A DNA stretch of 64,000 nt, from the NCBI GenBank assembly GCA_018417955.1, contig JACTVC010000025.1, forward strand, positions 620,001-684,000, written 5' to 3'. The notes under the pieces are model-generated. The model was not told the origin of the DNA. It did no database searches and saw only the letters and a program-made list of their open reading frames with translations. The position numbers and the translations under genes were made by a program. Positions within the stretch are counted from its first letter, which is position 1; the number at the start of each line of letters is the position of its first letter. This document shows, one piece after another, positions 1-21,715 of this stretch. This DNA comes from Laccaria trichodermophora (taxonomy: Eukaryota; Basidiomycota; Agaricomycetes; Agaricales; Hydnangiaceae).

Positions 1-1694
1 CAAAGCCCGGTTTTTGGAGTTCAAGAAGATCTCGGGCTTAGGGTATTTGAAACCAATGTTCGCGATGTGATCGGGATGTTTGATTACTCGCCTGCGATCC
101 GAATCGATGCTTCGCAAAGCCTCCGCCCATCTTGGCATAGGGTCAGGCATGAACGGGCTGTCTGGGGCATCTTCGCCCGCTAGGCGTGGGCGCTTGGAGG
201 GCCCTGGACCGTCATCCAACGTTGGCGCGAGCCCCAGAGATGGTGGAATAGCGGGCATCGAGGGTGGCAGGGACTGCTGCTGGGATTGTGGCTGGGATTG
301 CTGCTGGAATCTCACAGATTGTAAAACTGCAAACACGTTTTAGTAAACTCGGCACTTGAAGCGAAAGAACGACTTTACCTTGCTGAGTGGTTGAAGTGGC
401 TGAGGAATACCGTCCCTCACTCCTAGAAGATGATCCAGCTGAATACACTCCAAGTTAGCATTGAAAACATCAACCTGATAACAGTCCTTCTTACCAATGG
501 GCCCCACTGCCCCTGCAGCCGACAATTGGGCAACGGACGGGACAGGAAGTGAGTCTACAAAAGATAAATGTTAGCTACTGGTCCAAATAGAAGAAGCTTT
601 CACGTACAAGACTCCCGAACCGCACCAAGCTTCACTTTTCCCTCAATGAAATCCTGACGGCCTATTGCCGTAACGTCCTGAAGGTCCATAATCCCGCAGC
701 CTATGCGCTGCATCCGCCGGTAGAGTTCCGCGGATGATGGGCCAACAACCAGAACGGGATAGGGGTCAGGCGTTCCCAAGCCATCAGAAAACTGCTGCAA
801 GACGATATCGTCATCATGTCGCTGGGGGGAATACATGTTGACATTCATCGTTGGCAAAATACGAAAAGACGGGCGAATCAACCAAACCGGAATGCCCATC
901 GCGTGAAGTTGTTGCACAACAACGAGTTTCTCCGTAAAGGCGCCCATAAGTTTCTGATTGGGTTCGTGTATCTCCATGCCATTGGGACCAGGGCAGAGAT
1001 GGGGCTGGTAAACATCGACATATTCAATCCACCCGTGTATATCGAGTACGGCCCGTTGAAACTCTGCAACCGCAAGTACGATCTCTTTGTACGTCATTCC
1101 GAAAGATCTGAGTTTATCGAGACATTGACACATAGTCGTCACCAGGAGGCCAGCCAGCGGAGAGCGATCGGGACGTTGGCCTATGAGGCCAACATACTTG
1201 TCGCGAAGCTTTTTGTATCCCTCCAACAGGTGCGGTTTGAGGACGCGAATGACGATTGCAAAGGGGCCATTGGGGACTTCAGGACAATCGTCCCTAGTAG
1301 GAGTCCACCATAGCATGCGTCGCGAGTGCTCGCGCTTGGGAATACAGCAAATGTACTCAAAACCCCTGACGTACATCTGCGGATGTTGAGTGCGGTCTTC
1401 CAAGCCAAAACGTCCATCGGCTCTCGCTTGAATCGTTCGGATGCCGATGGGGGCAGTGGGAATGTACCCAGCATTGGGGGTTGTGATTACCCACCAATGG
1501 CTCACATCCTCGCTGTCTGGGTGCTCCATGTACGTGTTGATACCCGCTTCACTCAAAACCTCCCCTGACCGAACTCGACGGTCCGTCACATCCCAGCATA
1601 CCGCATCCGTGGCCTGGTATTCACAATCCCCTTCGCGGAAGTATTCTTTATAGAAAGGTTTGGCGTCAGAGGGGGACATTGCTGTCCAAGGCAT
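1..1694 (-). CDS. Hypothetical protein, 5' part (3' end beyond window)
   Basis: Three exons read on the minus strand: 1694-608, 554-379 and 303-1 (runs off the window). Donors GTACGT and GTAAAG, acceptors TTGTAG and TTCCAG, and the phases (1, then 0) agree. I chose the ATG at 1694 (MPWTAMSPSD); a second in-frame ATG is at 1679. An open frame continues upstream to 1790 but reads through a hairpin-repeat module and is not credible coding. At least 522 residues are encoded. The middle is Trp/Tyr/Pro-rich with no catalytic motif I recognise. The last exon has a Gln/Pro-rich, disordered-looking stretch and a KRPRL basic patch. The overall style matches large hypothetical proteins repeated through Agaricomycete genomes, which may be mobile-element-linked, but no function can be assigned. 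No in-frame stop is visible. Confidence 0.62.
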
Positions 1695-1728
1695 GAGTAT
1701 TGAACTCGATCGATGGAAAATGATAGAA

Positions 1729-1826
1729 ATTGAGCGACAAGGAGTCAAACTCAAGACGAGGATGTAGATCGACAAGGAGTCAAAACCCACATCCTCGGTT
1801 GGAACGACAAAGAGTCAAATTCCCAG
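1729..1826 (-). repeat. Hairpin triplet module A
   Basis: Three copies of GACAAGGAGTCAAA (minus-strand sense TTTGACTCCTTGTC) at 1736, 1771 and 1806, exactly 35 bp apart. Each copy is flanked by complementary arms of different sequence: TTGAG/CTCAA, GAGGATGT/ACATCCTC and GGAA/TTCC. The module lies just upstream of the ATG of the minus-strand gene, in its 5' leader or a first intron. The third copy has AAGAG instead of AGGAG. Confidence 0.75.
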
Positions 1827-2135
1827 AAAAGTATACAAAACAGAGGAAGATAGTGAACGTGGTATGAACCTAGACTTCGGCCGCGCAAAACAAACAATGA
1901 CTACGAGTCGGGCGCGAGACGTGGTAACACAAGCAGAAGTTCTGTCAACGACGTAAATTGACCAAACGAAACACAAAGAAAGGATGGCAGACACTCACCT
2001 GGGAAAGGGGGAGAACAGCCGAGATGATGAGTGTAACTCCAAGTGCTCCACAATGAGAGAGGCGGGCGTGACCGGTGGTAACACGAGCAATGGTCCTGTC
2101 AAACATGTAAATCGACAAGCACCACGATTGAGATG
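1827..2135. other. Noncoding spacer with donor-like repeat
   Basis: No supported gene. It contains GGCAGACACTCACCTGG at 1986-2002, which recurs identically at 2256-2272. On the minus strand it reads CCAGGTGAGTGTCTGCC and looks like an exon end plus 5' splice site. These sites suggest untracked minus-strand introns in this stretch. Confidence 0.4.
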
Positions 2136-2237
2136 AAAACCCAAGCGACAAGGAGTCAAGCTTGGGATGGAGAGACGGTCCGACAAGGAGTCAAAGACCA
2201 TACTCCCCAACGGAACGACAAGGAGTCAAGTTCCATG
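2136..2237 (-). repeat. Hairpin triplet module B
   Basis: Copies of GACAAGGAGTCAA start at 2147, 2182 and 2217, again 35 bp apart. The arms are CCCAAG/CTTGGG, GGTC/GACC (extending outward with GGAG/CTCC) and GAAC/GTTC. On the minus strand the module begins about 30 nt downstream of a GTGAGT donor-like site at 2263-2268. Confidence 0.75.
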
Positions 2238-2759
2238 GACACCGAAAGACAACACGGCAGACACTCACCTGGATAGTCCGTCAAGACGTGGAGGCGGGTG
2301 CGTGTGTCAAGTTGGTGTCAAGCTGATCAGATTGACAACTTAGACTTAATACCTGTCACGTTGATCAGTACACGTGACAAGACGCGTCGCGCGTATTTTC
2401 TCCTTGATGAACGCAACATTTGTGATCGAACTTTTCGAGTAGTTAATTTGGTTATACTCAGAGCAATAAATGTAGGTTGTATCTATATCGGAATTGATAT
2501 TACGGCCAATTGACAAGTGCATAATGTGAGTACCAGAAGCAAACTACTGGCAAGAACGTGTGTGGCCCAGATCAATGATGGAAGTAGACCGTGAAGCTTT
2601 GAAGCATAACCATAGTGTAATGATAGGAATGAAGGATGTTTCGCGCCACGAACTCGCAGGTATTCCCTCGTTCTTCCTACCCTTGAGCGTGCAGCTGAGC
2701 AAACTTGTAAGAACCTAATTTTATTAATGTATTGTGAGGCGCTCTAATGAAAGAAAAAT
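2238..2759. other. Intergenic stretch
   Basis: Beyond the donor-like repeat at 2256-2272 I see no gene, repeat or structured element. A 71-codon open frame at 2298-2513 lacks codon bias, splice support or recognisable sequence. Confidence 0.4.
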
Positions 2760-3186
2760 ATGGATAAGTACGGCAAGAGGTGCTATGTGGTCCAAGAGCT
2801 GACGAACAATGGTAAGTACGTGTCTATCTTATAATAGTCAGAACTACGCACTTACAACTTTGCTTCCACGCGGCATTGCTTGACATCATCAATGGCGTCC
2901 TCGAGTCTCAATGGCGTCCTGCTTACATCTCATGTTGTTGTCCCAGGCATCGGATGCGTTATCGGATCATGGTTATGCCCTAAGCATGGTGGATGAATTG
3001 TACAAGTTCACCATGGATATAGGACTTGATATTCGGGGTCATCTTCTCCCTTACTTTGCCGCTGATACCATGCCCCCGTGCCTCGACGTTGTGCGAACTT
3101 ATGTCATTGCGCACAGGGACCTAATAATCAGTCAGCAGGACCTAATAATCAGTCAGCGTGAATACAATGAGAAGCTTTACTTATAG
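2760..3186 (+). CDS. Small hypothetical protein, tentative
   Basis: A possible first exon begins at ATG 2760 (MDKYGKRCYVVQEL) and ends at a GTAAGT donor near 2812. A later exon after a CCCAG acceptor near 2946 reads ASDALSDHGYALSMVDELYK and ends at TAG 3184-3186. Intermediate splicing is unclear. A 21-bp tandem duplication near 3118-3159 encodes the peptide DLIISQQ/DLIISQR. No known domain is recognised. It may be a small lineage-specific gene or a gene fragment. Confidence 0.3.
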
Positions 3187-3302
3187 ATCGATGTACGGCT
3201 GTCATATCAATCAAACCACCCAAAAAAAGTTGGTGTGGCAGGACAAAATTCTATAATCGTGAACAGTCAGCGTGAATACATCGACAACGGTCAGCGATGC
3301 AA

Positions 3303-3400
3303 CCAGCCGAGCGACAAAGAGTCAAACTCGGTTGGACCCGCAGACCGACAAGGAGTCGAGGTCATTGGGCTCCCGGAACGACAAAGAGTCCAATTCCAGG
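3303..3400 (-). repeat. Hairpin triplet module C
   Basis: Loop copies at 3313 (GACAAAGAGTCAAA), 3347 (GACAAGGAGTCGAG) and 3380 (GACAAAGAGTCCAA), spaced 34 and 33 bp. The arms are CCGAG/CTCGG, GACC/GGTC and GGAA/TTCC. A minus-strand GTGAGT donor-like site lies at 3429-3434, about 30 nt upstream in minus-strand sense. Confidence 0.72.
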
Positions 3401-3698
3401 AGGTAGCATCCCAGACGTAGAGACAATCACTCACCGATGGTCCGCCGACTGTGTAGAGTTGACATGAAGACATTGGAGTTGATCTTTGAGTTGATCTTCA
3501 ACTCGAAGAATCAACTCGAAGACTCAAGTTGATCTTGTTGTCATTTGTTAATCGGCGGTACTCTGATCAAACCTTGATCACATTCGATGCGCTCTATCTC
3601 CGCACAAGGGCGCTTCTCTCACCTCTCCTCACCGCTTACCTACTGCCCTCAACGTTCAACAATGTAAGTTCCATTCTTCCCTCCTTGACCCCTTCTGG

Positions 3699-3795
3699 AC
3701 CAGCGGGACTTGACTCCTTGTCGTCCTCGCTGCGTTGTAGGCTTTGACTCATTGTCGGCCTTTTGCAGTTTGACTCCTTGTCACTGCTACTTGCC
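3699..3795 (+). repeat. Hairpin triplet module D
   Basis: Sense copies TTGACTCCTTGTC at 3710, TTGACTCATTGTC at 3744 and TTGACTCCTTGTC at 3770. The arms are AGCGGGA/TCCTCGCT (imperfect), GGC/GCC and GCAG/CTGC. The module follows a GTAAGT donor at about 3663 by roughly 45 nt, so it appears intronic and in transcript-sense orientation. Confidence 0.7.
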
Positions 3796-4035
3796 CCTCT
3801 GATATACACGTTGATGACGACCATGCTTATTCTTTCAACCAGATGCTCTCCGGAGTTAGACCTGCGCCTTCAATTCCCCTCGTGCATGTCCATGCACATT
3901 GCTTTCAACCACCTCCGGTTAGATCTGCACTCCCGCACGCCATGCTCGTTGCTTCGGTGCCTCTTGCACTCGCACAGAGGCTGCATTTCGGCTCAACAAC
4001 GTAAGTGTTCTAGCTCCATTCTTTTACCATTCTGG

Positions 4036-4130
4036 CTGCTGGATTTGACTCCTTGTCGTCCGTGCGGCTTATGAGGCTTTGACTCCCTGTCAGCTTTTCA
4101 CTTATGCAGTTTGACTCATTGTCGCTGCAA
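4036..4130 (+). repeat. Hairpin triplet module E
   Basis: Copies at 4045 (TTGACTCCTTGTC), 4079 (TTGACTCCCTGTC) and 4111 (TTGACTCATTGTC), spaced 34 and 32 bp. The arms are GGA/TCC, GCT/AGC and GCAG/CTGC. It sits about 40 nt after a GTAAGT near 4004. The copy order and middle/last variants resemble module D, as expected from local duplication. Confidence 0.7.
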
Positions 4131-4620
4131 GCCTCGCTTCGTGACTGGCAATCCACGACGCCATGCTAATTTCTTTGAATAGTATCTCCATTGGTCACAC
4201 CATGAAGCCATGGGAAACACCAGAATCCCGGGGACACACGTCTTATATGGTTCCAACTCTAAAACTGAATGTTAGTTCCTTTCCCGCTTCGTAAATCGTG
4301 TTCCACGACGCTGTGCTCATTTTGTATGCAAAGTTGGTTCATTGGCCTTACACTCGCAGTGTCATCTCCACTGGTCACACCATGAAGCCATGGGAAACAC
4401 CAAGTTGGTCCATTGGCGTTACACTCGCAAAGTCAACGTGTTGGAGGTATGTAGCTTCGCCTCGTAAATACCAATCCACGACGCTGTGCTCATCCGTTTG
4501 TTTAGTATCTACATTGGTCCCACCGCTCGGATCCTCCGCTCGGATGTTTCAGTCATCTAAGCAGTTTCGTGTCTCGGTACGTAGTTTGTAAACAAAAACC
4601 TTGATCTTCTTTAACAGGCA

Positions 4621-5287
4621 AACATCAGATATCGTGGATACGCCGGCGTTAGCTCTTTCATGGGTTGGTATGTTGGATTGAAAGACAAACCAACCAAAAA
4701 AGTACTTAATGGCTCTATTAGAATAATCACGCCAATATTGTTTATTATACATTCAGCTAAAGCCTTTTTCGTGGCTTGGTACGTTGCGACTTATTTTTTA
4801 AAAAAAAGAGGTTTATGTAACAAACCCCTTGGCAGACCTTCCTACTGGCCTGCGCGTGATCGCGTGGAGGGTAGTGTAGTGGTGGGCGCTAACCTGGTTG
4901 CCGCCGGGAATTTGACGCCACGAAGGGTCTATTTCCAGAGACCCTTCCACGTCAAGCTCTCAATGGTAATAAGACGGTGTGGCCTCTCTTTGAAAGACAG
5001 GAGTCGTTTCAACCTGGTTTGTCCATTTGGCTGGTTTATTGTCGACTTGGCTGACTCTCAAGGTCAATAAGTAGGATTTGGTTGGATCAACAGGGTTATT
5101 TTACCCTGAGACACACAACTCGCAACAACACTAGGGATATCCTGATTGAGCTAGTCCGTACCTGGCCTAGAGTGAACTAAGTAAGAATATATATTATAGA
5201 AACAGTAGACTGTTTTTTTAACTCAAACTCCCTAGAAAACAATTCCAACTTTCAACCACCACCAAGTTTACAAGAGCTATACCCAGC
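4621..5287. other. Intergenic region upstream of the 5.3-kb gene
   Basis: A 136-codon open frame (4660-5070) has no recognisable features and is not called. GACGCCACGAAGGGTCT...AGACCCTTCCACGTC-type inverted sequence near 4912-4955 could form a stem. The stretch just before ATG 5288 is A/T-rich with CAACCACCACCAAG-like leader sequence, compatible with a promoter and 5' UTR. Confidence 0.35.
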
Positions 5288-8200
5288 ATGTCCGAACCTC
5301 GTCAGCTTCGTCCGCGTAAATTAGTACCAGTCGTACTTTTGCCCCCTGTGGGCAAAGGCAGGGCGTTCACTAAAGTGAGTACTTTGCCTCCACAGCTTGC
5401 CACGTCGCTCAAAAAAAAACAGCAGGGAGCTGGAAAGTCTGCGCCAAGCAAGGAGGCTGAGATGTAAGTCGTGACAAATTTTAGTGCACGTTCTCTACTT
5501 ATTGTTCAATATAGTGCGACCGTCGAAGCTAGCGCCAATGCCGTCCCCGACACCGCAGATACTCAGGCCGTGGGTCAACCTACCCGCTCCAAGAAAAAAC
5601 TTGACGACAGTGTCAATGCCATCGTCAACACCAGATCGACTCCGGCAGTCAAGCGCCCTCGTCGTTCCAAAAAGTAAGTATATCATTGGAGTAATGAAGG
5701 ATCCTCTTTGACGTCTGCCATCAGAAAGACTTCGAAAGCCGTCAAGCGAGCTCCTGTCCAGAATTCAGAGCATGAGAAGTCAGCATTGACTACAGATAAT
5801 GAAAGGTAAATGTCTCTTCTGTGACTCTTTTTCAACTCCTCAACGTGTGCTCTAGCGTCACGGACACCAATGCTAGCAACAAGGCCGTGGTCAATGCCCA
5901 ACCCACTCAGGATGTACCCTCCACCACCGCCGCAGGTGCCATGGACGACCAACATGGTCTCAGTTCTGACGCTACTCAGGCCGTGGTCACGAAGACTAAG
6001 GGTGCGGTCGGTACATCCGAACAGCAAGACACTGCACACAACAATATACCCAAACCAATCCGCGCCTACGGCCGCCCAAACCAGTGTGTGGATTTGTCCT
6101 TGGGGATATACCGTTTGACTCCTTGTCGCGGGGTATCCTTTCCTTTGTGAAATTGGACTCTTTGTCGTTTCACTTGGGTCTCACCAGCGTTAACTCCTTG
6201 TTCGCTGCGCTTTTGGCATCTGTATTTGGCTGACAATCCTACAGGGTTATGGCCGTGGACGACCCAGATACCACGCCAACCCAGAACCTGGTTTCTTGCG
6301 GAAATCGGTTAGTGACGTCAGATAAGATTCCGCCGTCGTTTTATATGAAATATAACCTCCGCAGACGCAAGGATGACTTACCGGACGCCGCGGAAGACAT
6401 GTTTTACAACAGAAACCCGAATGCTAGGGCTTCAAATGCCTCTGCATCTGCTCCTTCGGGATTGCCTTTGGGTCTCCAGGCTACCCTGAGGTGTGTCTGA
6501 TTGTTTGAGCAATCCTCTCAGTCAGTTCACTAATATCTGCTAGATCTGCCTCAGCAAGACTTTCCCCATCAGCGGACGAAACTTTCACAATTCATTCGAC
6601 TCTTATTCCGACGTAAGTTTACTTTATTACGCATAGTGAGATTGGCACTGAGAATCCCTTCTACAGTAATGATTCTTCGGGTTTTCTTCCTTCTTCTCCG
6701 CTCTCCTGCATGACTGGGCCGGCTCCTCGTTCACGAGGTCTCTACAACATACGTAGCAAGCCGAACATCCCCCCTCTCAATGTAATTGACCCTACACTGT
6801 CCTATCGGCAGCCCATGACCCCAGACCCCGCATCCAGTGATGACGAATTTGATTCTTCGATGCCGTCGGATGACGGGCTTCCCCTCCCTGCAGCTTCATC
6901 TGTTCCGCATCCAGTGACCAACTATTTCTGCCATATTGGCAGAGCCATTGAGGACCTGGGTTATGTAGGTTTTCGATCAAGGATTTGGCTGGCTAGGCCT
7001 GGCGACTGGGTTGCGTATGCCCCATACACCTGTTGGTATAATCACGTAGGTCGTCAATGGGAGAGTCTCCCCCTGGGCTACACCACAGAGGAACCTCGGG
7101 CGTTACACGATCTTGCTGAGGTGGAGGCGTGGGAGGAGGCTGAGATAATTGCCCAGCGTCAAGAGGATGAACAAGACTCATGCGACGATCCAGAGTCTGG
7201 CGGCACAAAAGAGTCCGGCCAGGAACCTGTTGAAGTAGAGTCAGGCGGTGAGAAAGAATCAGGCGGCGCAAAGGAGGACGACTACCAAGCAGAGTCAAGG
7301 CGCGAAGCTGATCAAGATGGCGAAAAGGGCTATAGATCGAGTTCTTGCGGGTCAGGTAGCGACTTCGGCGAAACCGAGGAGGCGAAGGCGCGTCAATGTG
7401 AATGGGCTCGCAAGAACCGGGGACGGGGCCATGATGAGATGGATACCGTGGAAGAGGAAGAGGATGATGAGAGGAGGATGGAGGAAGAGGATGAGTAGGA
7501 CAGGCGTCGAATGAGTAAGCAAAAGGGTCGGAAGGGGCGTTCGGGTGCCAATCGCGGCAACGAATTGGGAGAGGACCAGGTTTCACGGGGTCGACAACGT
7601 AAACGAGCTGCAAGGAAGTCGAAGGACAATGGGGGCTCAGGCCCAGGTGAAAACTTTGCAGAAAAACTATGTCGGTTAGCAAAGAGCAAGCCACCAGCGC
7701 AACGGCCTTCAGCAGACAGAGAGGGTTCAGATGCGGTTGCGGAAGGTGCTTCTGATGAGGGTTTGGAGGCGGACGCGGAAGGTGCTTCTCAAGAGTTCGC
7801 ACAAAAACTGCGTCGCCTAGCGAAGAGCAAGCCACCAGCACAAAGGCCTTCCGCAGAGGGTGAGGGTTCGGATGCGGACGAGGAAGGTCCTTCCGAAGTG
7901 CCCACTGCACGCCCTGTCACGAGCACAAAGGCATTGGGAAAAAGGCGAGACAATCCGGCAGAATCAATAAAGCGTGGCCCATTCACAGCTCATGAGACTC
8001 GACTGGCGATGGAACTCGCAGATACTATTGTCGCGCATTGCAAGAACATGGGTCGTACGCCTGAGTCTGTGCTGCGGAAAGGGGGATTCAATGTGTCCCT
8101 TTCTCAGGAAGCCTCGCGTTGGGACATTTGGCAAATGTACTTGCGTTACCAGCCTTACAATCCCAAAAAAAGTAAGCACATCCATGTCTTATAATTCTCG

Positions 8201-10126
8201 TCTCGGGGTCTGATGTTGTTTTCAGGTGGAGGTTCATGGGTAACTCAGGCCGCCGAAATGTACAACAACATTGTGGACAAGTTGTCCCCGGATCAGATGG
8301 ATAAATTCGTGGAGGAGATGGTGTCTGAGTTGGCCGTGCTCAGGCCTGAGACGGATGGGCAAGAATTCAAGATAACAAAAACAGCACTGAAGCAAGTTCA
8401 AGACTTGGTAAGTCTTCAGCCTGTTTTATCGAGCTGCCTTCTAACGAGAGTCCTGCTTTGTAGGCAACAGCCCTGGGACGTGCCGATGTCGACATGATTG
8501 GGATCATCATTCCGCGGGATCCTGTCGCCAACCAAGCCGCGACGGTCCTTACAGGGAATGCACATCTTCAGGGCGTCATTCAGCACTGTCAAGCTGATAT
8601 CAAACAGATGCTTCATCATTTAACGACGCTCCTTAGGTAAATTCCGACCTTGACTGGCTTAAAAATCATATTTATTGATAGTAACGTTGAAGGGGAATGG
8701 ATTCGAAGATGATCACACCGAAGTCTGTAAACTTGGCGCAGTTGCTGGGTAGGGATGTTGCCAACATTCCGCAGATTGATGAAGTGCCGTTACCAAAGTC
8801 CCCTACCATGCCAGGTGGACTGAAAAAACCGTCAAAACCGTCAACAAAAGCTTCTAAGACCGCGAAAGCTGTAGCCAACCCCATTGACCCCAATCTTAAC
8901 CTTCCAATGACCGCCGTGCCTGCAGCATATTGGGAGTGCCGCCACACAGAAATATCAAGAGATCGCGCTCGAAGATGTGTCCCCCAGCTGTTGAAGTTCC
9001 AAATGGGTATGTCGTCTTCTGTTCCATGGTTTGGCTGGAGGCTCACTGGGATGAAGTGGAATGGGCAGGCCCAGAGGTAGCGGCGGGCTCTTCGGTGTGG
9101 GCAAATTTTTTGACCCATTGCCGTGATGCGGAAATGGTCCTCGAGCGATGGCCCTGCAAGGAGCCTTTCCCTGGCGCGAAAGGCTGGTCCGTCAGTGATA
9201 TCAGTTCACCCGGAATCACCGTCATGTTCACGTACTTGATGAGCAAGGATGATGAGTTGAAGGCTTTGGCTCCTCGTATTGTGGCATGGTCTGATGGTAA
9301 GTTCCACTTACATCACACAACATCATTTCACAGAATGGCTCTAGATCACAAGTCTCTGGATGAAGGGAGCGAAGAATGGCTGGAGATACCTATCGTCACA
9401 GGAGTTACGGAGTCGGGGGAGGTGAAGGTCTTGGCCCGCATCAAAAACTGTCAGCCCGAAGTCCACAATGCTGCACGACAAAAAGATGGTGGGCCGGATG
9501 TGGCGCCTCTCCTTCGAGCGAGAGCTCGCAGTCAGGCGATCGATGAGAACACGCTGAAAGTTACCAAGAAGAAGACGACCAAATCCACTCAATCCGACGC
9601 TCAGAAACGCAAGTTACGTGAGGAGCCCAAACGTCAACCCAAAGTGATATATGTTGAGGACCCCCCTTTGGACGACGATAGTGCCAACGACTCTCGACCT
9701 CCAGTACCGACAAAGCTTGTTCGCCGCCAGGGAACATCACACCAAGTGGCAGATCCGTTTCCACAGCAGCCACGCGAGCCCAAACCTCGATCAAAAATGG
9801 TATACAACGTAGAGGATCCCCCTTCCGATGAAGAAATGGCCGACGGGACTTGCCCTGTGGTGAACTCCCTGACAGCCTCCCCTCCTGCTAAGCGAGTGCA
9901 CTGCGAGGATACGTCAAACGAAGCAGCAAGTTCAGTTCAACAGCAAGCACGCAATTACCATGGTACGTCACACGCTCTTGGTCCATGCGATGAAAGTCAC
10001 TCAGAGGTTTTAGGTGCAGGTTCTCGCCAACAGAAAGCACAAGACCCCCGTGTCGCATACCAGCGTCAGGTCTGCGCGCCTGAGGACAGTGGCCCAGGAC
10101 TGGTGGCTACCACTTTTATCATATAA
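5288..10126 (+). CDS. Large hypothetical protein, multi-exon, probably decayed
   Basis: It starts at ATG 5288 (MSEPRQLRPRKLVPV) after a CA-rich leader. Exons I can follow are 5288-5464, about 5514-5675, about 5726-5804, about 5856-6083, 6245-6492, short exons near 6543-6610, and then a long stretch from about 6667. Further introns lie near 8171-8225, 8408-8463 and 8638-8683. The product is low-complexity: repeated Lys/Arg-rich and Thr/Ala-rich exons, then a very acidic segment (about 7100-7495) and a basic GRKGR segment. Two near-copies of a block reading KLRRLAKSKPPAQRPSA occur near 7660-7710 and 7804-7854. A TAG at 7496-7498 lies in frame with MSKQKG at 7511 (CAG to TAG would explain it), and the frame changes near 8930-9000. 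The last codons (GLVATTFII) are not its own: they lie in the tip of the transposon at 10099. The gene is therefore truncated by that insertion. The protein resembles Agaricomycete hypothetical proteins; function is unknown. Confidence 0.5.
6103..6206 (+). repeat. Hairpin triplet module F, inside a 161-nt intron
   Basis: Copies at 6115 (TTGACTCCTTGTC), 6153 (TTGGACTCTTTGTC) and 6190 (TTAACTCCTTGTTC). The arms are GGATATACCG/CGGGGTATCC, GTGAAA/TTTCAC and CAGCG/CGCTG. The module lies inside an intron (6084-6244) whose boundaries keep the frame across ...RPNQ and VMAVDDP. The other introns of this gene are near 50 nt, so the module accounts for the excess length. Confidence 0.78.
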
Positions 10127-10319
10127 ATAAGGTAACTGCCTAGAGGTCATTGTGTATAAGTCCACAGTCTTTATGATAGGGAATCATTCCAGTTACCATG
10201 TCTTTTCATTATCATAAAGCCTGCGCTTTTTTCATTAGGTGTAGGCAAGGCTTTAGACCTCCATCATAAGCTAGTCTGGGATTATCATTACCAATTTCAT
10301 ATATTTACCAGGGCATATC

Positions 10320-11400
10320 ATTAGCTATTTCATTGACTACTTTGGGTGATATCATTGCGATTTTCATTACTTATCTGGCCGATATGATTGAAAATTTCAT
10401 TAGCTGCTTGGCCAATATCATTGGAATTTTCATTAGCTTCATCTGGCCAATATCATTGTAATTTTCATTAAATACCTGGGCTATATATCATTGGAAATAT
10501 CATTAGCTACTTGAACAATATCATTGCGATTTCATTATTCATCTGGCCAATATCATTTGCGATTTTCATTAGCTCCTTGACCAATATCATTACAATTTCA
10601 TTATTCATCTGGCCAATATCATTTGCGATTTTCATTATATACCTGGGCTATATCATTGGAAATTTCATTAGGTATTTGGCCAGTATCATTGGAATTTTCA
10701 TTAGCTTCATCTGGCCAATATCATTGCGATTTTCATTAAATACCTGGGCTATATATCATTGGAAATATCATTAGCTACTTGAACAATATCATTGCGATTT
10801 CATTATTCAGCTGGCCAATATCATTTGCGATTTTCATTAGCTCCTTGACCAATATCATTACAATTTCATTATTCATCTGGCCAATATCATTTGCGATTTT
10901 CATTATATACCTGGGCTATATCATGGAAATTTCATTAGGTATTTGGCCAGTATCATTGGAATTTTCATTAGCTTCATCTGGCCAATATCATTGCGATTTT
11001 CATTAAATACCTGGGCTATATATCATTGAAAATATCATTAGCTAGTTGAACAATATCATTGCGATTTCATTATTCAGCTGGCCAATATCATTTGCGATTT
11101 TCATTAGCTCCTTGACCAATATCATTACAATTTCATTATTCATCTGGCCAATATCATTTGCGATTTTCATTATATACCTGGGCTATATCATGGAAATTTC
11201 ATTAGGTATTTGGCCAGTATCATTGGAATTTTCATTAGCTTCATCTGGCCAATATCATTTGCGATTTTCATTATATACCTGGGCTATATCATTGGAAATT
11301 TCATTAGGTATTTGGCCAGTATCATTGGAATTTTCATTAGCTACTTGGCCAATATCATTGCGATTTCATTAGGTATCTGGGCGATATCATTGTGAATTTC
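10320..11400 (+). repeat. Left-arm tandem array of the KDZ element
   Basis: Short units of about 30-45 bp share TATCATTGCGATTTTCATTA, joined by GCTACTTGGCCAA- or TACCTGGGCTA-type spacers. A higher-order unit of about 268 bp repeats: equivalent points fall at 10511, 10779 and 11046. It matches the right arm in inverted orientation. Open frames through it (NNIIAISLF...) are a by-product of unit length and are not genes. Likely subterminal transposase-binding or spacer repeats. Confidence 0.9.
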
Positions 11401-11870
11401 AATAGCTGTTCCTGCAATATCATTGATTACCCATGGCACTGCAATTGTGAATTTTATTACTTCTGACGGATATCATTGATTGTATGTGGTGCTTTCAAAG
11501 CGCATTTCATTACTTGTCTGTGTGATATCATTGTGATATCATTAATTTGCCACAGCATCTTCAAAGCAAATTTCATTCGCAGTGTATGCGATATCATTCT
11601 ATTTTCATTAAATAGCACAGAAATAACATTGCATCCGCAGTACCCTTTCTTGGGGCTTTCTACACTCTCAGTCTCTTAGTAGGTGTAGACAGGTGTCTTA
11701 TTGTAAACAGTTGTGTAGCACAGCTTAATTGGGATTGATTGCACAGCCAAAAAAAAAGCGAAATTATAAATGTATGTATGTGTCAGGGCGCAGTATTTAT
11801 GAGTTGCGAAAGCATTTAATTAACCTGAACGACATGTCAGGGGTAGTATCTACAAGTCAAAAGCATTCAA
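11401..11870. other. Inner flank of the left arm
   Basis: Degenerate copies of the ATATCATTG/TTTCATTA unit fade out by about 11620. Between 11700 and 11870 two imperfect copies of a block occur (GAACGACATGTCAGG.../GAACGATGTCTACATT..., each after TTTAATTAACC or TTCAATTAACC). No gene is seen. Confidence 0.5.
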
Positions 11871-14444
11871 TTAACCCGAACGATGTCTACATTGGGGGAT
11901 CAGTTGTTGAAAGACAATTAAGTGCCGAAACTTACCTTTTGCCAGTGGCCTTGCTTGACTGGGTGGGGGAAGGATCTTCACGACCTCGCTTGGTGCCTTT
12001 GGTGCCTTTGGGGGTTTGCGAGACCATGTTGTAGATCTGATCGATGACCCATTGAACGTCTTTGACAGCTGACCACGCACGCAAGCAAGGGGGAAGTTCC
12101 GGACGCAACGCTCCAATCCACCACGAAAGCGCAACGACGACCGTATAGAGGCCAGCAGATCCACCTTTACAGAGCAATCGCCAATCCTCGTCAGGCGGGG
12201 CATCGTAGACGAAAGATGCATTGTCGGACAACCTCCAAGTTGGCTGAATGGCAAACCACCAAGCCATGAACGAAGAGCCATAGGTATTCGGGTCGACCTC
12301 GGGTGGCACCTCCTTCTTCTTATTCTTGATCCACGCTGCAACCTCAGCCAGACGCGAAGTGGTCGGTAAGTTCTATGTATACGAAGTACGTCAGTATGTC
12401 ATAACATAGCAACTTAAGTTAAAAAAACTTACCCCAGTCGTGGTATTCAAACCTTCTAAACGAAAGAGTGAGTTTATAAGGCCTTGCCATGCCTTATCCT
12501 TCGAAATACCACACAGGTAACATGGCATACTGGTGTTGACAAGCCAAGCAGGGGGGTTGACTGCAAGCTGAGAAGCCGCATCTTCGCTATCGACGTCCAT
12601 GGGCACTCCTAAATTAGAGTCCTGTCCGCCGACATCAGGAGTATCGTCTGTTGAGGCAGTCGGGCTGGCGGATAACGTGGGCTTGAAGGCAAGTGGGTCG
12701 GTACTGGCAGAGCCTGTTGACGCTGGCAGAGATGGAGGAGTGGACTCAGTGGAGGCGCGGGGGAAGGACTCGGACTTGTCAGGTGCTGATGCAACTTTGC
12801 CCAATTCGACAATTCCATCTGCTGAGTCATGCGCACAAGCCTCGGAGTTACCGTTGATCCTATTAACTTCATTTTCGGTCACCATGGTATTCTCAGGTGT
12901 CGTCGAAGGGGATTCGTTTCTTGATAAAGGGAGTTCAGTTTTGGGTACAACGCAAGGTACGTGTTCCTCACCTCAATCCTTGGAGCGGGGTTGAACTCCC
13001 CCCCTGTTCTTCCCTATCCATTTCATTCTGCTTTGCCGTTCCCGATTCCTCCTTGTCACCTTTCTTGGTGAAATCTATCTGGCCATTCATGACCTGCTTC
13101 AATAACTCCTTGTTTCGGGCAATGTTTGCCTCTCGAGTGAGCTCGTACGCCGATTTGCCGCCCTTTTTCTTGGTATTCAAACCCTCTCCCCTCTTCTTCT
13201 CTCCATCTCTAGCACTACCGATGACCTTATCGCTTTCTTTCTTATCGACACCGTCTTTGTTATTGGTGTTTTCCTTGTTAACGGCACCTTCTGTCTTATC
13301 AGCGCCTCCCTCATTGTCGTCAGTGTTTGCAGTACCACTCTCTTCTCCCGCTTCAGGTGAGTTGGATTTCGAAGTTAACCCTCTCCCCATGCGGACTTCA
13401 GCAGCTGATAACTTGTTAGTAAAAGCTTAGCTTATCATGTACAAAACTTACGGAACACCTTGTGTAGGAATTCGTCAAACAGGTCGACGATATGTTCATC
13501 ATAGGCGGCCTCTCCAAGAAAACCCTCGAAGTCCAATTCGTCCGCTGTCTTGCCACAATTCAGCCTTATCAACTAGTCAGTGAGAATCCGGCACCACGGT
13601 AAGTGCAGACCCTTACATAAATGTCATTATTTTACCGTTCTGACGTGGTTCAGGTCCTCCAACTAGGAAAGTCACGAACCATCCCGTTTGCTTGAAGATT
13701 GAGTCCCCCAGCATGGAAAGAGTACAGGGAAGCTTATCAATGGCACTGTGGAAATGGTAAGTAATCTTTCTAAGCTAATGCGTCATTTACTTTACTCACG
13801 TCTGGTAGGCATTATTTTGTTCGTCGGTCTCTGCATTGAACTTGGCTTTCATCGCAGCCCGACGCTTCCTAACGTCTGCCTTTACTTCGTCTGTTTCCTC
13901 CGCATACTTATTTTTGAGGAACGAGTTCATGAAAGCGAAACGCCCCTGAGGAATCTTGACGCCAGGGTTTTCTTCGTTCCATTTATTCGTGTAAGCCTCC
14001 CATTCACTATCGATTATGGTCTTCCATTTACTCTCGTACGTCATTGTCTGATAGACTTGCCATTCTTGGCGAAGCCTTGGTTGCGTGATTTTTAGAACAC
14101 CCCGAGTTCCTGAACCCGACGTCGAGCTTCGAGTGTGGTTATGAAACCACGACTTGATCTGCTGCCATTCATGTGAGTTAGTCTGTGTTCATTTTACGTC
14201 AAGCGCATTCACGTACCTCATCCTCTTTGTCCTTCTTCACCTTGGCAACTTCCTCGGGACTGTCAGCCCCAGCAACTTCATCATTTGTAGGCTCTTCGAG
14301 GGGCCACAACTTCCTCCATTCCTTGAGGACGTCAGGAAAGAAATGAGTGGATGTCGTCTTGTCAGCTTGGGAATCAGTGAAGGCCGAAAGCCGTTCCTTG
14401 AGCCACTTCTCTTGTGATGGGGTAGTCCATTTGCGGCGCGTCAT
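11871..14444 (-). CDS. Transposon-borne hypothetical protein with WFHNHTR motif
   Basis: Eight minus-strand exons close in phase: 14444-14217, 14182-13800, 13745-13617, 13564-13452, 13404-12972, 12919-12433, 12372-11936 and 11886-11871, giving 741 residues and no internal stop. It starts MTRRKWTTPSQEKWL. An N-terminal helical region leads to a conserved-looking WFHNHTR at about residues 85-91. The centre is Lys/Asp/Glu-rich and Ser/Thr/Pro-rich (disordered). The C-terminal part has Trp-rich segments (SFMAWWFAIQPTWR, ALSWWIGALRP) and a basic tail. Proteins of this architecture recur as hypothetical proteins in Agaricomycete genomes; I recognise the type but know no function. Its place between the inverted arms suggests an accessory or cargo gene of the element. 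Unlike the transposase beside it, it is intact. Confidence 0.72.
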
Positions 14445-14647
14445 GGTCGATAATGCGGCAGTAGGTTGGTTGTAATGTGACCAGGGTTGTATGAATTCTA
14501 GATGGATGTCAAGTCCAACTTTGACGTGGCAAGTTCGGGTTAAGTGTTTTATAATCGGGTTTTTCCAGTTTTCTCACTTGTCGTATACCACCAGCTCAAC
14601 ACCGCATGCAATTTTTCCTCTTGCCTGTCGCAAAGCCCCCTTCGACG

Positions 14648-15497
14648 ATGAACGGTGATTCTCTCCACTCATTCAATTTCGTGTTAACTGACTCATTGGA
14701 TTACAGGACCACCTCCTCCAATTAACTACGCCACCCGCCCGAAACGTGGCCAACAAAAGCCTGCTGAAAGCCTCGTTTCAACCAACGGTGCCGTGGACAA
14801 CTGTTGCCCCGACGTTGTCCAACGAGACAGACAGGCTGACGTCTCCCTTGGACATTCTCAACAGGATGGTCGAGGTCATGTTCTTGAACATTCTCAACAA
14901 GATGGTCGGGGTGATGTCCAGCAGGACAGTTTGGCCGACATCCAGCACAATCGGTATCCCGATTTTGGCACCACAACCATTGCGCGTTCTTCTAATTCTG
15001 CCTCTAAACTGTACAGCTTCCATGGTTTCCCCAATGGCCTGCCGACGCCTCGAACTCCTCACTCCTCACCTCGCAAGCAGTGTGGTTCTCCTGATGGCCT
15101 GCTGACGCCCCAAACTCCTCACTCCTCACCTCGCAAGCAGTATGGTTCCCCTGATGGCCTGCCAATGCCCCGAACTCCTCACTTCTCACCTCGCAAGCAG
15201 TCATCTAGGGCCAGATTCTATTCAGTAGTTGTCGGAAGACAATGTGGAGTGTTTGAAAGTTGGTATGTGATCGTCAATTACTTCGACTGCTATATTATCT
15301 CATATTCTTTCAATCAATCTAGGACATATGTCAGTGCTTTGACGACTGGTATTTCCGGCAATTCTCAGCGTGGCTTCAGCACTCGTGAGGCAGCCCTTGA
15401 GGATTATTTTGAGGCGAAAAGGTTGGGTTTGGTCAAAGTTTCCAGGTTGCCAGGTGATGAACGCATCTTTGGCCCCATTTCTGAGGCAGAGTTATAG
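14648..15497 (+). CDS. RNase H1 N-terminal / viroplasmin-like domain protein
   Basis: Three exons: 14648-14654, 14707-15262 and 15323-15497. The tiny first exon (ATGAACG) and both introns keep the frame; the product is 245 residues. The C-terminal part carries a hybrid-binding fold signature: RFYSVVVGRQCGVFESW, then GFSTREAALEDYF after about 25 residues. This matches the Caulimovirus viroplasmin / eukaryotic RNase H1 N-terminal family, which binds RNA-DNA hybrids or dsRNA. No RNase H catalytic domain follows. The N-terminal part is polar and repetitive (SQQDGRG repeats, then three copies of a 20-residue PRTPHSSPRKQ unit). Nucleic-acid binding is inferred from family membership; its role inside a KDZ element is unknown. 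Confidence 0.7.
15025..15204 (+). repeat. Three 60-bp coding repeats
   Basis: Three near-identical 60-bp units (GATGGCCTGC...CTCACCTCGCAAGCAG) encode a Pro/Ser-rich unit containing TPHSSPRKQ. It keeps the frame in all three copies, so it is a protein repeat rather than insertion debris. Confidence 0.85.
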
Positions 15498-16817
15498 TTG
15501 TATGAGATCTTGTAGACCAATCGTAGACGGCGGAGTTGTCGTTATCTTGTAGACTACTTTTGATCTCCTTAGCGTTGTCATGCCGTCGTCAACTCTCTTT
15601 GAATGTAATGCCGTTTGTTTGATCAATACATTTGGAAGCTTTTGGATAATCACAATGATAGACCTCCACATGATTAAGTGACTGAGGGCAGCATCAATAA
15701 CTGTGAGTTGCAAGTGCGAAGTCTTGACGTTCCATACATGATGCATGAGCGCGCAATGTTCCAAGTGGGAAGTTTTAACTTTGACCTGCTATATCCTCGC
15801 AACATCAAAAGTACGAAGTGCAAAACTAATTTTATCTAGTAGATACTATACCCTAGACTACTCAGCAAAAAGAACTAAGTGAAACGACTTCAGTAATGTA
15901 TCTTAATAAGTCTGTTACTCGAAGATCAAGCCAAATCAAGTAGTCGATCACAAATGTATATTCTAAGATGGATACTGCTACACCCTCGTAACATCAAAAG
16001 TACGAAGTATAAAACTAATTCTGGCCAATAGATACTATATCCTAGACTACTCAGCACAAAGAACTAAGTGAAACAACTGCAGAAACATATCTTGATAAGT
16101 CGATTACTCAAAGATCAAGCAGTCGATCACAAACATATATTCGAAGATATATATTATAAGCTATCATGATCATTGGTTACAGGTTAGCTGAAAGGATAAG
16201 TACAAGACGACATCAACTGGTTAGGAATAGCTTTTATTCTAAGATGTACATTCTAAGTTAATTCTGAGCTATCGTGGTCGTTTGAACGGATACTAAATAC
16301 AAGTTTCAACCTTTTTCACCAGAGTCCGAGTCGTACAGTCTGCACTCCTTTAAATCTGCATACACCTTGACAAGGGCTGAAGTCCTCTTTTCATTAGAAG
16401 CTACGATCTGTAGCTAAAGCTATACCTTTCCCAATTAAAGTTGTCTTGGTTGCCAGTGAAACTTGAAATCGAGCTTCCCAAGTAGTATGAGCATTCCGAA
16501 GTCAGGCATGAACTACTTCATTTAAACTGAACTGTATCCTTAGGGAGCTCTTTGAAGAATCATAATTCTCTCTTTTAAATCTGTCCATGCAATGTCTATC
16601 TGCATTACAGACGATTTGACGAACGCCCAATACTGATCATGTAACCGAGATCACGAGTTGCCAAATTTGGGTGTCGCTTCGTTGATTCCTGCCATATCGA
16701 ACTCATTCCAGGTGCGTAATCTTTGTTTCTCATTTTTTGCCATGCCAATCTCAATTTTCATTCCTTTCATAAGATGTCTGCACAGTCTTGGCTCTCGACT
16801 GCCAGCACACCAGGCGT
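15498..16817. repeat. Intergenic region with a ~190-bp direct repeat
   Basis: After the gene end, two imperfect copies of a roughly 190-bp unit lie near 15788-15975 and 15978-16165 (CTCGCAACATCAAAAGTACGAAGT..., GACTACTCAGCAMAAAGAACTAAGTG..., AGTCGATCACAAA). Differences include several C/T and G/A changes. From 16166 to 16817 no gene or repeat is evident; it should hold the transposase promoter. Confidence 0.65.
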
Positions 16818-19800
16818 ATGTCCAAGCGCAAAGATGAGGACGACCCCAGTGCCCATCCTCCGATGGCCACAAAGCGTTGTCGACCCACCCCTGGCTTCCA
16901 TGTTGCTCGTAAAGGAGACTCAGAGCCTCAAGACGTTACATCGTCTCACGCATCAACAACACTGCTTGGCTCTATACATGCTGGCAAATACTCTAATGCC
17001 AAATCCACGACTTCTGCGAACCCCCTTCCCCATCTTCCTGGCTTCCGGGCCGCCCGCGTCAGAGAGCCCCAAAGCTCTGACCCTTCTGGTCCATCAACCT
17101 CAACAAACGAAGGTCGTGACTTGAGTGCGAAACCTCAGTCTTCCATGAAGCAACAACGGCTTCGTCCTGGCTTCCGTGTAGCTCGTTCTCGAGAGACTGA
17201 AAACACCGCTTCCGGCACATCATCTTTACCAACAAAGTCACGCATCACCACCCTTGCTCTTAGCGCTAATGGACGACGGAAAGCAAAGCGCAAAGACCGG
17301 AGTCATAACCCATCAGCCACCAACCCAACCTCCATGGCCACGACTTCCGCAACTCCTCCTAATGACTCCATGCCCTCTTCCTACTTCTCTGGTGGTCCCA
17401 CCACACCTCCCGCTGAAACAAGGCATAAACGAAAGAGAACGAATAATGCACAGGTATGTCAATGCTAAGCGTCATTTTATTCTCAAACTAACATTCTCTA
17501 TTTTGAAGTCCAAACTCCTCGAGTGGCTCTCATTTCGAGATGCTACGCTTGACGAGATCTTGCGTCACGATGGCCTTGGAGACTTTCTCGGGCAACAATT
17601 TTGTGTGGAGTGTAACGAGGAGATGGGAGTCTTCAAGTGCAAGGACTGTTCGAGTGGATGCTACCTTCGCTGTCAGGCTTGCATTGTCAAGGCTCACCGG
17701 GAGACGCCGTTGCACCGAATCGAAGTAAGTAAACTTTCATATAACGAAAAACTGCAGAACTTGAACTCATACTGCCCTCAGAAATGGACTGGGGACTTCT
17801 TTGACAAGATTTGCCTCAAGGATCTTGGATTACGCGTTCAACTCGGGCACGGCGGGGGCGCTTGTCCTTGCCCATCACCCGGCCCACCAAAATTTATGGT
17901 TTTCGACACTTCCGGCATTCACCTTGTAAATATCGACTACTGCGATTGTCCAAATGACAACGTGCCTGATCGAAAAACTCAGCTTCTGCGACAAGGCTGG
18001 TTTCCAGCGACTTTTTCACGGCCCAACACAGTGTTCACGTTCGATTGCCTGGATACATTCCATGAACATACCCTGCAAGGAAAGGGTAACCTGTATGATT
18101 TCTACCATCTTCTAGTACGTAAAACAGATAATGCAAACTTATTCAAGACTTTCGTAAGTCTTGATTTATTACATTGGTCAATAAGTACACTGTAATAAAC
18201 TAAATCCCTCTCCAGTATCGCTATAAGGAGATCCATCGGGTGTTTCGCATATGGCGAAACCTCATGGCCCTCAAACGTGCTGGCCGTGGACACGATCCTG
18301 CCAGCGTAGACAGCACCTCATCTGGTAGCTTGACCGTTGAGTGCCCTGCATGCCCACACCCCGGCCGAAACCTGCCCCAAAATTGGCGAGAGGCTGGCCC
18401 TCTCATGTAAGTATCATCCAGTATCGTCTGTTGTTTGTCAAATGTTCTAATGGGTGGTAATTAGGTTTCTATATATATTATACATATCGGTCGACGCCAA
18501 TTTCAAGCTCAAAAGCAAGGATTGTGGTCTCAAGGATGTTGAGCTTATGCCAGGTTGGGGACCCTTCGTCGAAGAGTCGGCATACCAAGCCTTCATAGCA
18601 GAATATATTGATCAGCCTGAGGTAAGTTTACAAAGATACTTATCCTTTCTCGTTGACTTAAAAACTCTCACATAGATCAACACTTGTGAGTCTGAGCGTG
18701 ATGCGATTGTCCACGCACAGACACGCTGCACACCCGGTTACGCTGTCTCGGGCACTGCTATTGTCATCTGCTCGAGGCATGCACTTATACGAAGAAATGG
18801 GGCAGGTGACCTGCAGAAGGGTGAGAAGTACGTATTCTTAGTAGTAAAAAATGATCCTGCTAATTTCTTCATGGGTAGATATTGTAATGTTGACTATATC
18901 ATCTTTGCCACACTTGTCGGCGTCATGTTACCCTGGATTTTCATCACGTACGACATTGGCTGCCAATGGTCGACGAACTTCTGAAGCCGCATGTCCGAAT
19001 TCCCAGAACACATGAGGCTTCCGCCAGAGACGAAGGTCAGCGTTGCTGTTCCCAGCTGGCACATCAACAGCCATGGACGGAGGTGCCGCAAGACCTTCTG
19101 CTTGGGCTATACGAAGGGCGCCGGGAGGACGTGTGGCGAGGAGGTTGAAATTACATGGTCGAGCACGAATTCTCTTGCTCCGAGCGTGCGAGAGATGGCA
19201 CCTGGGGCTCGCCATGATACATTGAATGATCACTGGAATGGCTGGAATTTCCGCAAGATCATTGGTTTTCGTACGTGTAGCTCTTCTTTTTCTTATTTGT
19301 TTATTTGTTTTCTGACATCTTTTCTGGTCTTCCAGGTACATTATTTGCGAGACGTTTCAAAGAAGCGGTTCTCATGAGTGAAAAACAGAAGGAGGTATTC
19401 AACAAGTTTTCGTCAACATTCCCTCCTGAGACCGTCGTCAAATGGGAGCGGATGGTCATCCGCTAGGAAGCCGATCCGAATGCTCAGAACCCTTATGACG
19501 AACCTGAGGCCAGTAAGTACTGTTGCCAATGGTAAACTTTGGAAAAATTTTAATCAACCTCTAGCAACGACTCTCCAGGACGTGCGGCTTCGATTGATGC
19601 AAAAGGAAACCCTTGAACTTGCGTCTGGTCGTAAGCCGAAGCACAAGGTTACCATGATGGGTTATTTCTCAATGGGCTTTGATATCGAAGATCAGCAGTG
19701 AGTACTTCGACAACATTTGTTTCTCTATGTAGTATGATCTAATGTACTTTAGGTTTATCCTTAAAGCAGAAATCGCACGATTGAAGGGGAAGAAGACCAG

Positions 19801-20881
19801 TAAACAGCTCGCCGATCTCGAGGAGAAGAAGAGCACCCTCATCCGACATATACAAGTTTGGAGACCGATACAACTTGCTTACACACCTCACGTCGCCATC
19901 CTACTCCCTTCACTACATACGGTTGATGATGCCGGGTTCCACTATGCAAATCCAGAGTCGACAATGCTTCTTTTCCCTTTGTCGCTTCCGCCTGAGATAC
20001 GTCGACTTCCTGAGTTAAAGGAAGTATGTGATGCCGAGCGCAGTTTACGTGAACCGCAAGCCCACGACGCCCTCGCTGACATCCGCCGCCTACGTCGCAT
20101 CATCCAAGGCTTGTGGCAGTTCAAGAAACTTAATGTTTCCGGAACTGGAAATCACCCAAACACGCGGATGTTAGGCACATACAGCCGAATTGAGTACAAG
20201 TTGCAACGTGCGGCTAATCGGTACCGTGTTGCATATACCGCATTAACAGCTCTGGACCCCAACGGTGCCTGGACAGAGTGCCTTAAGGAGCTGAAGCCTA
20301 CAGACCTTAGGGGTCCTGGAAGAGACCCTGACAACCCGGTAGACACGAAGACGTCGAATGGCTGATTTACTCCATCATGGATCTGGCTGGTCCCACGCCC
20401 ACCTCACGAGAAGGGAGACAATCAGACTGAAGATGAGTTCAATGATAGTATGCGTTCGGAATGGGCACAAACAAGAGTGCGTATGTCTCGTTGGGGTGAG
20501 GAGCTTCTGATTCTCCAAGAGGAGATGCGGAGAGTGCTCGCATTTTTCGAATGGAAGGCTACATGGTGGTTAGAACAAGGTAATCGAAGACAGGGTCTTG
20601 AGTCATCAGTCCATAGTGGTATCGTTGCGTACGCCCATAAGCAAGCTGCTATTTGCTTGCGTATGGCTGCTCGATGTGCAGCATACTGGTTACCCATCAT
20701 GAAGCAGTACAGCATCATTCCGACTTGGGCTGAAAGGTACAAACACAAACCAGGGACTCCCCTGGATGGTGTTCATTCCAACTCTGATGCTGACTCTGAC
20801 TCTGAGTATGAGGTGGATGGTGCAGATGAAAAGTCAGATGTTGGTGAACCAAATGTAGATGATATTTTTGACTTGGATTAA
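16818..20881 (+). pseudogene. KDZ transposase with CxC2 domain, three in-frame stops
   Basis: Ten exons close in phase: 16818-17453, 17509-17724, 17782-18153, 18216-18406, 18465-18621, 18676-18827, 18879-19270, 19336-19512, 19565-19697 and 19753-20881 (1185 codons). The basic N-terminus has three PGFxxAR repeats. Next comes the CxC2 zinc cluster (CVECNEEMGVFKCKDC...CYLRCQAC...H) with CPCPSPGPPKFMVFDTSG after it. The transposase core includes SVDANFKLK, DLQKGEKYCNVDYI and YDIGCQW; the acidic residues of the first and third are candidate catalytic residues. A helical region and a Ser/Asp-rich acidic tail end the protein. These are hallmarks of Kyakuja-Dileera-Zisupton transposases of basidiomycetes. 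In-frame stops at TGA 18982, TAG 19464 and TGA 20363 break it; each is one C-to-T step from CGA or CAG. Splice sites are otherwise preserved, so inactivation looks recent. Confidence 0.88.
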
Positions 20882-20924
20882 AGGTGCTGTCACTTGATTA
20901 GATCATTATTTTCAATGAAAAGTA

Positions 20925-21715
20925 ATGAAAAATTGCAATGATATTTGCCAAGTAGCTAATGAAAATCGCAATGATATTGCCCATTTAGCTAATGAAAATT
21001 CCAATGATACTGGCCAAATACCTAATGAAATTTCCAATGATATAGCCCAGGTATATAATGAAAATCACAAATGATATTGGCCAGATGAATAATGAAATTG
21101 TAATGATATTGGTCAAGGAGCTAATGAAAATTGCAAATGATATTGGCCAGCTGAATAATGAAATCGCAATGATATTGTTCAAGTAGCTAATGATATTTCC
21201 AATGATATATAGCCCAGGTATTTAATGAAAATTGCAATGATATTGGCCAGATGAAGCTAATGAAAATTCCAATGATACTGGCCAAATACCTAATGAAAAT
21301 TCCAATGATATAGCCCAGGTATATAATGAAAATCGCAAATGATATTGGCCAGATGAATAATGAAATTGTAATGATATTGGTCAAGGAGCTAATGAAAATC
21401 GCAAATGATATTGGCCAGATGAATAATGAAATCGCAATGATATTGTTCAAGTAGCTAATGATATTTCCAATGATATATAGCCCAGGTATTTAATGAAAAT
21501 CACAATGATATTGGCCAGATGAAGCTAATGAAAATTCCAATGATATTGGCCAAGCAGCTAATGAAATTTTCAATCATATCGGCCAGATAAGTAATGAAAA
21601 TCGCAATGATATCACCCAAAGTAGTCAATGAAATAACTAATGATATGCCCTGGTAAATATATGAAATTGGTAATGATAATCCCAGACTAGCTTATGATGG
21701 AGGTCTAAAGCCTTG
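20925..21715 (-). repeat. Right-arm tandem array of the KDZ element
   Basis: Inverted copy of the left-arm array (TAATGAAAATYGCAATGATATTGGCCA units) with the same ~268-bp higher-order period (equivalent points 21182 and 21450). It starts about 40 bp after the transposase stop. The outer 140 bp (21716-21856) matches 10105-10245 in reverse complement almost base for base. Confidence 0.9.

Follow-up and report, generated by a model that had tools for sequence, protein, structure and literature searches.

In yeast, structures within introns of RPL22B and RPL7B are described as being bound by the gene family's own protein, with splicing held back (PMC4838235, PMC12311795), and the transposase of the Drosophila P element is limited by splicing control near the 5′ splice site of its third intron (PMC7776569). 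Here we describe arrays of hairpins in a 64,000-nt stretch of the Laccaria trichodermophora genome (contig JACTVC010000025.1, positions 620,001 to 684,000; hereafter the window, whose own coordinates are used below), in which six hairpin triplets lie inside a large DNA transposon of the Kyakuja-Dileera-Zisupton (KDZ) type and are predicted to occupy introns of two divergent element genes. The element has in common with described KDZ transposons the KDZ transposase domain and a CxC cysteine cluster (PMC12730594); the main text of that paper does not mention hairpin arrays and contains the word ‘hairpin’ 0 times, a count that also holds for the main text of the P element paper (PMC7776569). We found no report of hairpin arrays of this design in the literature.

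CACTA and other DNA transposons carry a short repeated motif in their subterminal repeats, which gives them a likeness to the arrays. Unlike such repeats, the arrays are internal to the element, lie in predicted introns, are confined to one strand according to the gene, and preserve pairing rather than sequence. The resemblance to RPL22B and RPL7B is that of a structure within an intron, conserved here in introns that are predicted. Whereas the yeast cases, as described in those reports, concern one structure in one host gene and have no tip types that differ between element families, the KDZ triplets occur in several introns of two divergent transposon genes and do have such types. Control of the P element, as its main text describes it, acts through an exonic silencer upstream of the intron that is read by PSI and hrp48 (PMC7776569), whereas the KDZ arrays would be intronic.

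Hairpin triplets with covarying stems

The window holds 18 copies, all within 2 mismatches, of the core TTGACTCCTTGTC, which form six groups of three between 1730 and 6208, just as an initial annotation of this DNA had claimed. Three triplets lie on the minus strand, La at 1730–1824 (core positions 1736–1818), Lb at 2141–2235 (2147–2229) and Lc at 3307–3398 (3313–3392), and three on the plus strand, Ra at 3704–3788 (3710–3782), Rb at 4039–4129 (4045–4123) and Rc at 6109–6208 (6115–6202), each consisting of three hairpins. The two sets face outward, the minus-strand set in the sense of ORF-A, whose start codon La adjoins, and the plus-strand set in the sense of a divergent gene on the right. 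The arrays sit between and within the two genes, mostly between them. Altogether the window contains 23 matches to TTGACTCCTTGTC where 2.55 were expected, a number reached by 0 of 100 shuffles; the five that fall outside the triplets are scattered singles.

Each hairpin comprises an outer stem of 4–5 bp or longer, the sequence of which changes from hairpin to hairpin, followed by a 2-nt bulge, an inner GAC:GUC stem and a 5-nt loop that is mostly UCNUU. The core had initially been taken for a conserved loop of 13–15 nt; its conservation stands, and what had seemed a single loop in fact holds the inner stem, the 5-nt loop and the bulge. The spacing given at the time, about 35 bp (26–38), is nearly right, the measured start-to-start distance within triplets being 26–39. 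Spacers between hairpins vary in length and sequence, and conservation is limited to the hairpins themselves. DNA-level searches covered the 59 Mb of this genome. The three-hairpin unit is kept in 85 of 89 clusters; raw cluster sizes were 74 of three, 11 of four and 4 of two, and four core variants (≤3 mismatches) that had given rise to a spurious fourth match were taken out ahead of the triplet count. A search of window positions 1–10000 against Rfam, snoRNA families included, gave 0 matches at E up to 5.

Covariation was measured on 35 distinct triplets, aligned without structure after 50 of the 85 triplets had been excluded for ≥93% identity to a kept one. The structure named above is paired in 97.4% of 840 cells compared with 82.8% in shuffles (0/500), 15 pairs show two-sided change compared with 9.7 (0/500), and two-sided cells number 133 against a shuffled mean of 36.3 (0/500), a statistical result that bears out the earlier suggestion of covarying stems around a fixed core. 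The covariation tool warns that kinship alone may outscore shuffles without any structure; column slides preserve relatedness, and sliding the partner columns by 1–2 brings pairing down from 97.4% to 28–35%. RNAalifold, run without a given structure, returns the same three hairpins with one end pair lost and one gained. Across 174 distinct hairpins, with spurious matches kept in, outer-stem positions 2–5 are Watson-Crick in 593 of 696 cells and G·U in 45, compared with 178–180 Watson-Crick cells after a slide of one base, and the complementary arms first noticed around the copies are therefore real. Outer pairing stands at 95.7% when each sequence has its own 3′ arm; once the 3′ arms are exchanged among sequences it averages 68.7% and in none of 2000 shuffles exceeds 75%. 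The thought that stem complementarity might be no better than in shuffled flanks does not hold for the copies tested. Compensatory double changes between copies of one triplet position occur in 18 of 144 slot-pairs, none of them in Rc, and the inner stem covaries as well, with a two-sided change from GAC:GUC to AAC:GUU in hairpin 3 of Rc. The stems covary around a conserved core, and the anatomy is firm.

Pairing at the DNA level predicts that, on one strand, G·U should be about as frequent as its mirror A·C. Outer stems contain 29 G·U and 3 A·C, compared with 314 and 222 off register (p = 1.4e-4), and all 24 pairs together contain 97 and 6, with the motif's T·G closing pair contributing 60. 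Because G·U is far above A·C, the sense strand of both divergent genes is the strand that folds. Computed folds are more stable for sense than for antisense in 6/6 arrays, and the minimum-energy fold completes 17 of the 18 hairpins, with hairpin 3 of Ra keeping its inner part only. The arrays are thus predicted to fold as sense-strand RNA, and would probably do so in pre-mRNA.

Comparison of the window's copy with four copies of another subfamily (three for Rc) shows 72–83% identity in the arrays, 31–59% in the adjoining 100-nt stretches and 69–71% in ORF-A coding DNA. Since 40 unrelated 100-nt pairs under the same alignment average 28% and reach at most 41%, most array flanks are near background; the highest flank identity, 59%, belongs to Rc, on the side leading into coding sequence. 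The sequence around the arrays drifts, whereas the arrays themselves persist.

Predicted introns and distant element families

In the main family, 32 of the 35 arrays are preceded by a GTRNGT 5′ splice site 25–46 nt upstream. When distant arrays are included, 34 of all 42 have such a site within 100 nt upstream, compared with 21.6% of random places and with 8 of 42 on the antisense side, and 25 of the 35 main-family arrays are followed, in the next 150 nt, by a match to a loosely defined branch-point and 3′ pattern (a count made without a control). Five arrays in the window fall in predicted introns of 161–184 nt, namely Lb (2096–2268, minus; CCAG/GTGAGT to TTGACAG, with the 3′ site read by eye and no match to the branch-point pattern), Lc (3251–3434, minus; GTGAGT to CTGAC-N-TATAG), Ra (3664–3842, plus; GTAAGT to CAACCAG), Rb (4001–4182, plus; GTAAGT to CTAAT-N-ATAG) and Rc (6084–6244, plus; GTGTGT to CTGAC-N-ACAG). 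La is the sole array of the window with no 5′ splice site within 100 nt upstream; taking a GTGAGT further upstream gives a predicted intron of 317 nt (1682–1998, minus). The firmest of these predictions is the Rc intron. The coding exons on its two sides belong to the right gene and specify protein that both subfamilies conserve, with IPKPIRAYGRPNQ and KSFRMYGLKQ before the intron and DDPDTTPTQNLVS and ADPDATPTQELIS after it. Reading through the Rc intron meets an in-frame stop within the array in both subfamilies.

The window and 16 loci, two of which represent one copy, supplied the 16 main-family copies whose arrays were read. Loci L009–L028 were picked for holding core matches and are therefore no test of the fraction of copies that have arrays; L045–L047 were picked from ORF-A matches, with core matches already listed near L046 and L047 and none near L045. 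Cores with ≤1 mismatch number 410 in the genome compared with 61 for the reversed pattern. ORF-A itself has at least 60 matches in the genome, and among those listed 29 are at 62–100% identity and 31 at 22–32%. Upstream of distant ORF-A relatives outside its training set, the main-family covariance model found further arrays, with scores of 47.8, 42.8 and 30.4 bits at L044, 28.9 at L042 and a weak 15–18 at L043. The architecture is unchanged in these distant arrays, but the tips are not: L042 and L044 have UUYGC or close variants of it together with a bulge of two bases, and L043 has UNUGU, UCUAY or UGUA with one bulged base. The divergent partner gene at L044 encodes a KDZ-associated CxC1 cluster (41.1 bits, E 2.1e-10), which over 87 residues shares 46% identity with the cluster in the window's element.

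Exact UUYGC cores occur 52 times in the genome and once in the reversed control, and 43 of the 52 are at most 6 kb upstream of a distant ORF-A (38 in its sense direction, 5 antisense). One-base-bulge cores number 22 (18 with one mismatch to the pattern) compared with 0 in the control; all 22 are likewise at most 6 kb upstream of such an ORF-A (17 sense, 5 antisense), and their loops are UUUGA in 9, UUUGU in 6, UAUGC in 3, UGUGU in 2 and two others. Pooled, 65 of 74 cores fall in these 6-kb zones before ORF-A relatives, which make up about 0.3% of the genome, and the patterns mark 20 of the 31 listed distant relatives, none of which is marked twice. That the arrays are old beyond this genome is suggested solely by the depth of ORF-A divergence inside it.

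A possible RNA operator and its rivals

We tentatively propose, at close to an even chance, that the arrays are predicted intronic RNA operators of the KDZ transposon. The likely binder is a protein that the element encodes, which would hold back or release splicing of both divergent genes. Of the identities first offered for the triplets, a structured intronic RNA or a protein-binding series is the best fit to the sense-strand G·U bias and to the 5′ splice sites before 32 of 35 arrays, with the introns predicted and the binder putative. Under this proposal, the hairpins would form in the pre-mRNA of both element genes, where a protein would read the bulge, inner stem and loop; variable stems combined with a kept bulge, inner stem and loop point to a reader that grips the hairpin tip. 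Beads of three or four hairpins at variable spacing may represent independent docking sites, and their placement shortly after a 5′ splice site points to a role in controlling splicing. The reader could be encoded by the element itself, since within this single host genome the tip is nearly constant (UCNUU) in the main family and takes other forms (UNYGN and its relatives) in the other families. Between binding that blocks splicing and binding that aids it, we would favor a block, as a form of self-limitation with parallels in RPL22B and, through a different route, in the P element. Were the Rc intron retained, the in-frame stop in the array would cut the right protein short. We speculate further, and regard as doubtful, that each KDZ family encodes the reader of a private hairpin tip (UCNUU, UUYGC or one-base-bulge), that splicing is shut off as copies rise, and that tip and reader coevolve. 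In that equally doubtful extension, the superfamily would run its own RNA-level copy-number sensor, and families sharing a nucleus would stay independent of one another.

A number of observations weigh against this proposal. The introns around the arrays are themselves predictions from sequence signals, and strict 5′ splice sites are present in just 2 of 7 distant arrays, with GTAAGC seen by eye in two more. Rb does not fold clearly better than its own shuffles (z −1.54, with 18/200 folding as well), and 52–57% of cells are still paired when partner columns are slid by 3, because of repeats within the motif. At L045, a main-family copy whose ORF-A has 73% identity, the 4.8 kb before that gene contain no array; 11 of the 31 listed distant ORF-A relatives have no core by either pattern, and 9 of the 52 UUYGC cores lie elsewhere in the genome. 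The tip types also blur into each other: UUUGC, of the two-base-bulge type, is one base away from UUUGU and UUUGA of the one-base-bulge type, and the single element L043 holds UCUAY, UGUA, UGUGU and UUUGU loops. This closeness weakens the inference of an element's own reader for those two types, and since the types are not cleanly separate, the argument for private readers rests mainly on UCNUU versus the rest. As to which protein might act as reader, ORF-A is the common companion of the arrays and a candidate RNA reader only; with a pI of 6.1 it is slightly acidic, and no solved structure is a convincing relative of its predicted fold. The right protein carries an RG-rich tail that is suggestive of RNA binding as a hint and nothing beyond it, and the right gene was not demonstrated among the distant elements.

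An alternative that we consider unlikely is that the hairpins are a structural aid to splicing or are read by a host protein. Intron structure can enhance splicing, as described for yeast RPL7B (PMC12311795), and the closeness of the second and third tip types is what a shared reader might permit. A structural aid, however, needs no conserved bulge, inner stem and loop, and a host reader would be expected to impose a single tip, whereas this genome contains both UCNUU and UNYGN tips. Somewhat less likely is an intron-hosted small RNA, in which the excised intron would give a stable three-hairpin RNA acting in trans, like many snoRNAs. The arrays do lie behind 5′ splice sites with room towards a branch point, and the three-hairpin unit is kept in nearly all clusters, but the restriction of conservation to the hairpins, the variable spacers, the lack of any Rfam match in the search above and the presence of several similar arrays in each element all argue against it.

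We regard as very improbable a function of the arrays as DNA, whether as binding sites for transposase or a transcription factor or as cruciforms near a divergent promoter. Subterminal repeats of other transposons bind transposase, and most of the arrays lie between two divergent genes. Against this, stem sequence is free while pairing is kept, tolerance of G·U and not of A·C marks one strand, and array orientation follows the genes, with Rc located within a coding region in a predicted intron. An ordinary degenerate tandem satellite, with arm complementarity as a by-product of copying, would account for repeated, regularly spaced copies, but it is practically untenable and was rejected, as neither the arm-slide nor the arm-swap test gave it or its version without pairing, envisaged at the start, any support.

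If the proposed operator exists, DNA transposons own a private RNA operator code that is conserved across families whose first proteins are about a quarter identical, ORF-A, an unexplored protein group, may include an RNA reader, and the possible self-limitation of large KDZ elements in mushrooms would have an explanation; the families would also be a source of hairpin and protein pairs with differing specificity. Even without the mechanism, the arrays represent a covarying RNA element matched by no Rfam family.

Element genes, ends and surroundings

The window begins within the transposon, and the KDZ transposase domain (PF18758) is encoded to the left of it on the same contig (L037:3092-3727, minus; E 2.8e-35, 122 bits against a cut-off of 26.6), beside a CxC1 cysteine cluster that barely passes its own threshold (27.3 bits against 26.9, E 4.3e-6). 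ORF-A (606–1679, minus) is the first gene to the left of the arrays and belongs to a multicopy family of unknown function that is found beside most arrays studied and has a confidently predicted fold. The family counts 161 proteins at E up to 0.001; the closest named relatives are from Laccaria, 59–69% identical over part or all of ORF-A, and at the protein level others occur in Hypsizygus, Coprinellus and Arthromyces. The right gene (5289–10097, plus) is divergent from ORF-A and from the transposase further left, both on the minus strand, and has several predicted exons, the scanned pieces of which gave no Pfam match. Among relatives of its protein, 11 of 12 have a conserved RG-rich tail at the end (e.g. 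L040:2237-3853, minus). RG-rich composition is known from RNA-binding proteins.

Repeats of 43 bp form arrays near both ends of the element, as pieced together from two copies: the left-end arrays belong to the window's copy, and those of the right end, in inverted orientation, to the copy on contig 77. The hairpin arrays do not adjoin the element ends, being some 6.6 to 11 kb inside the left-end repeats. The early idea of a hairpin-ended mobile unit does not fit, as the hairpins are internal to a transposon whose ends carry other repeats. Near-identical copies of the element sit at the extreme ends of at least 3 contigs (C1, C6 and C77), which may reflect either a subtelomeric habit or assembly breaks caused by repeats.

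In the window's copy the right gene is interrupted near 10098 by a second, nested element (10098–21862), which is also KDZ-type (CxC2, E 4.2e-41) and bears long inverted arrays of a 33-bp repeat; the covariance model finds no hairpin array in it. Further along the window, open frames at 49782–55364 (minus) resemble, by eye, the polyprotein of a long terminal repeat retrotransposon, and two more tandem-repeat arrays at 27202–28749, with spacings of about 62 and 80 bp, are bounded by a 233-nt inverted repeat.

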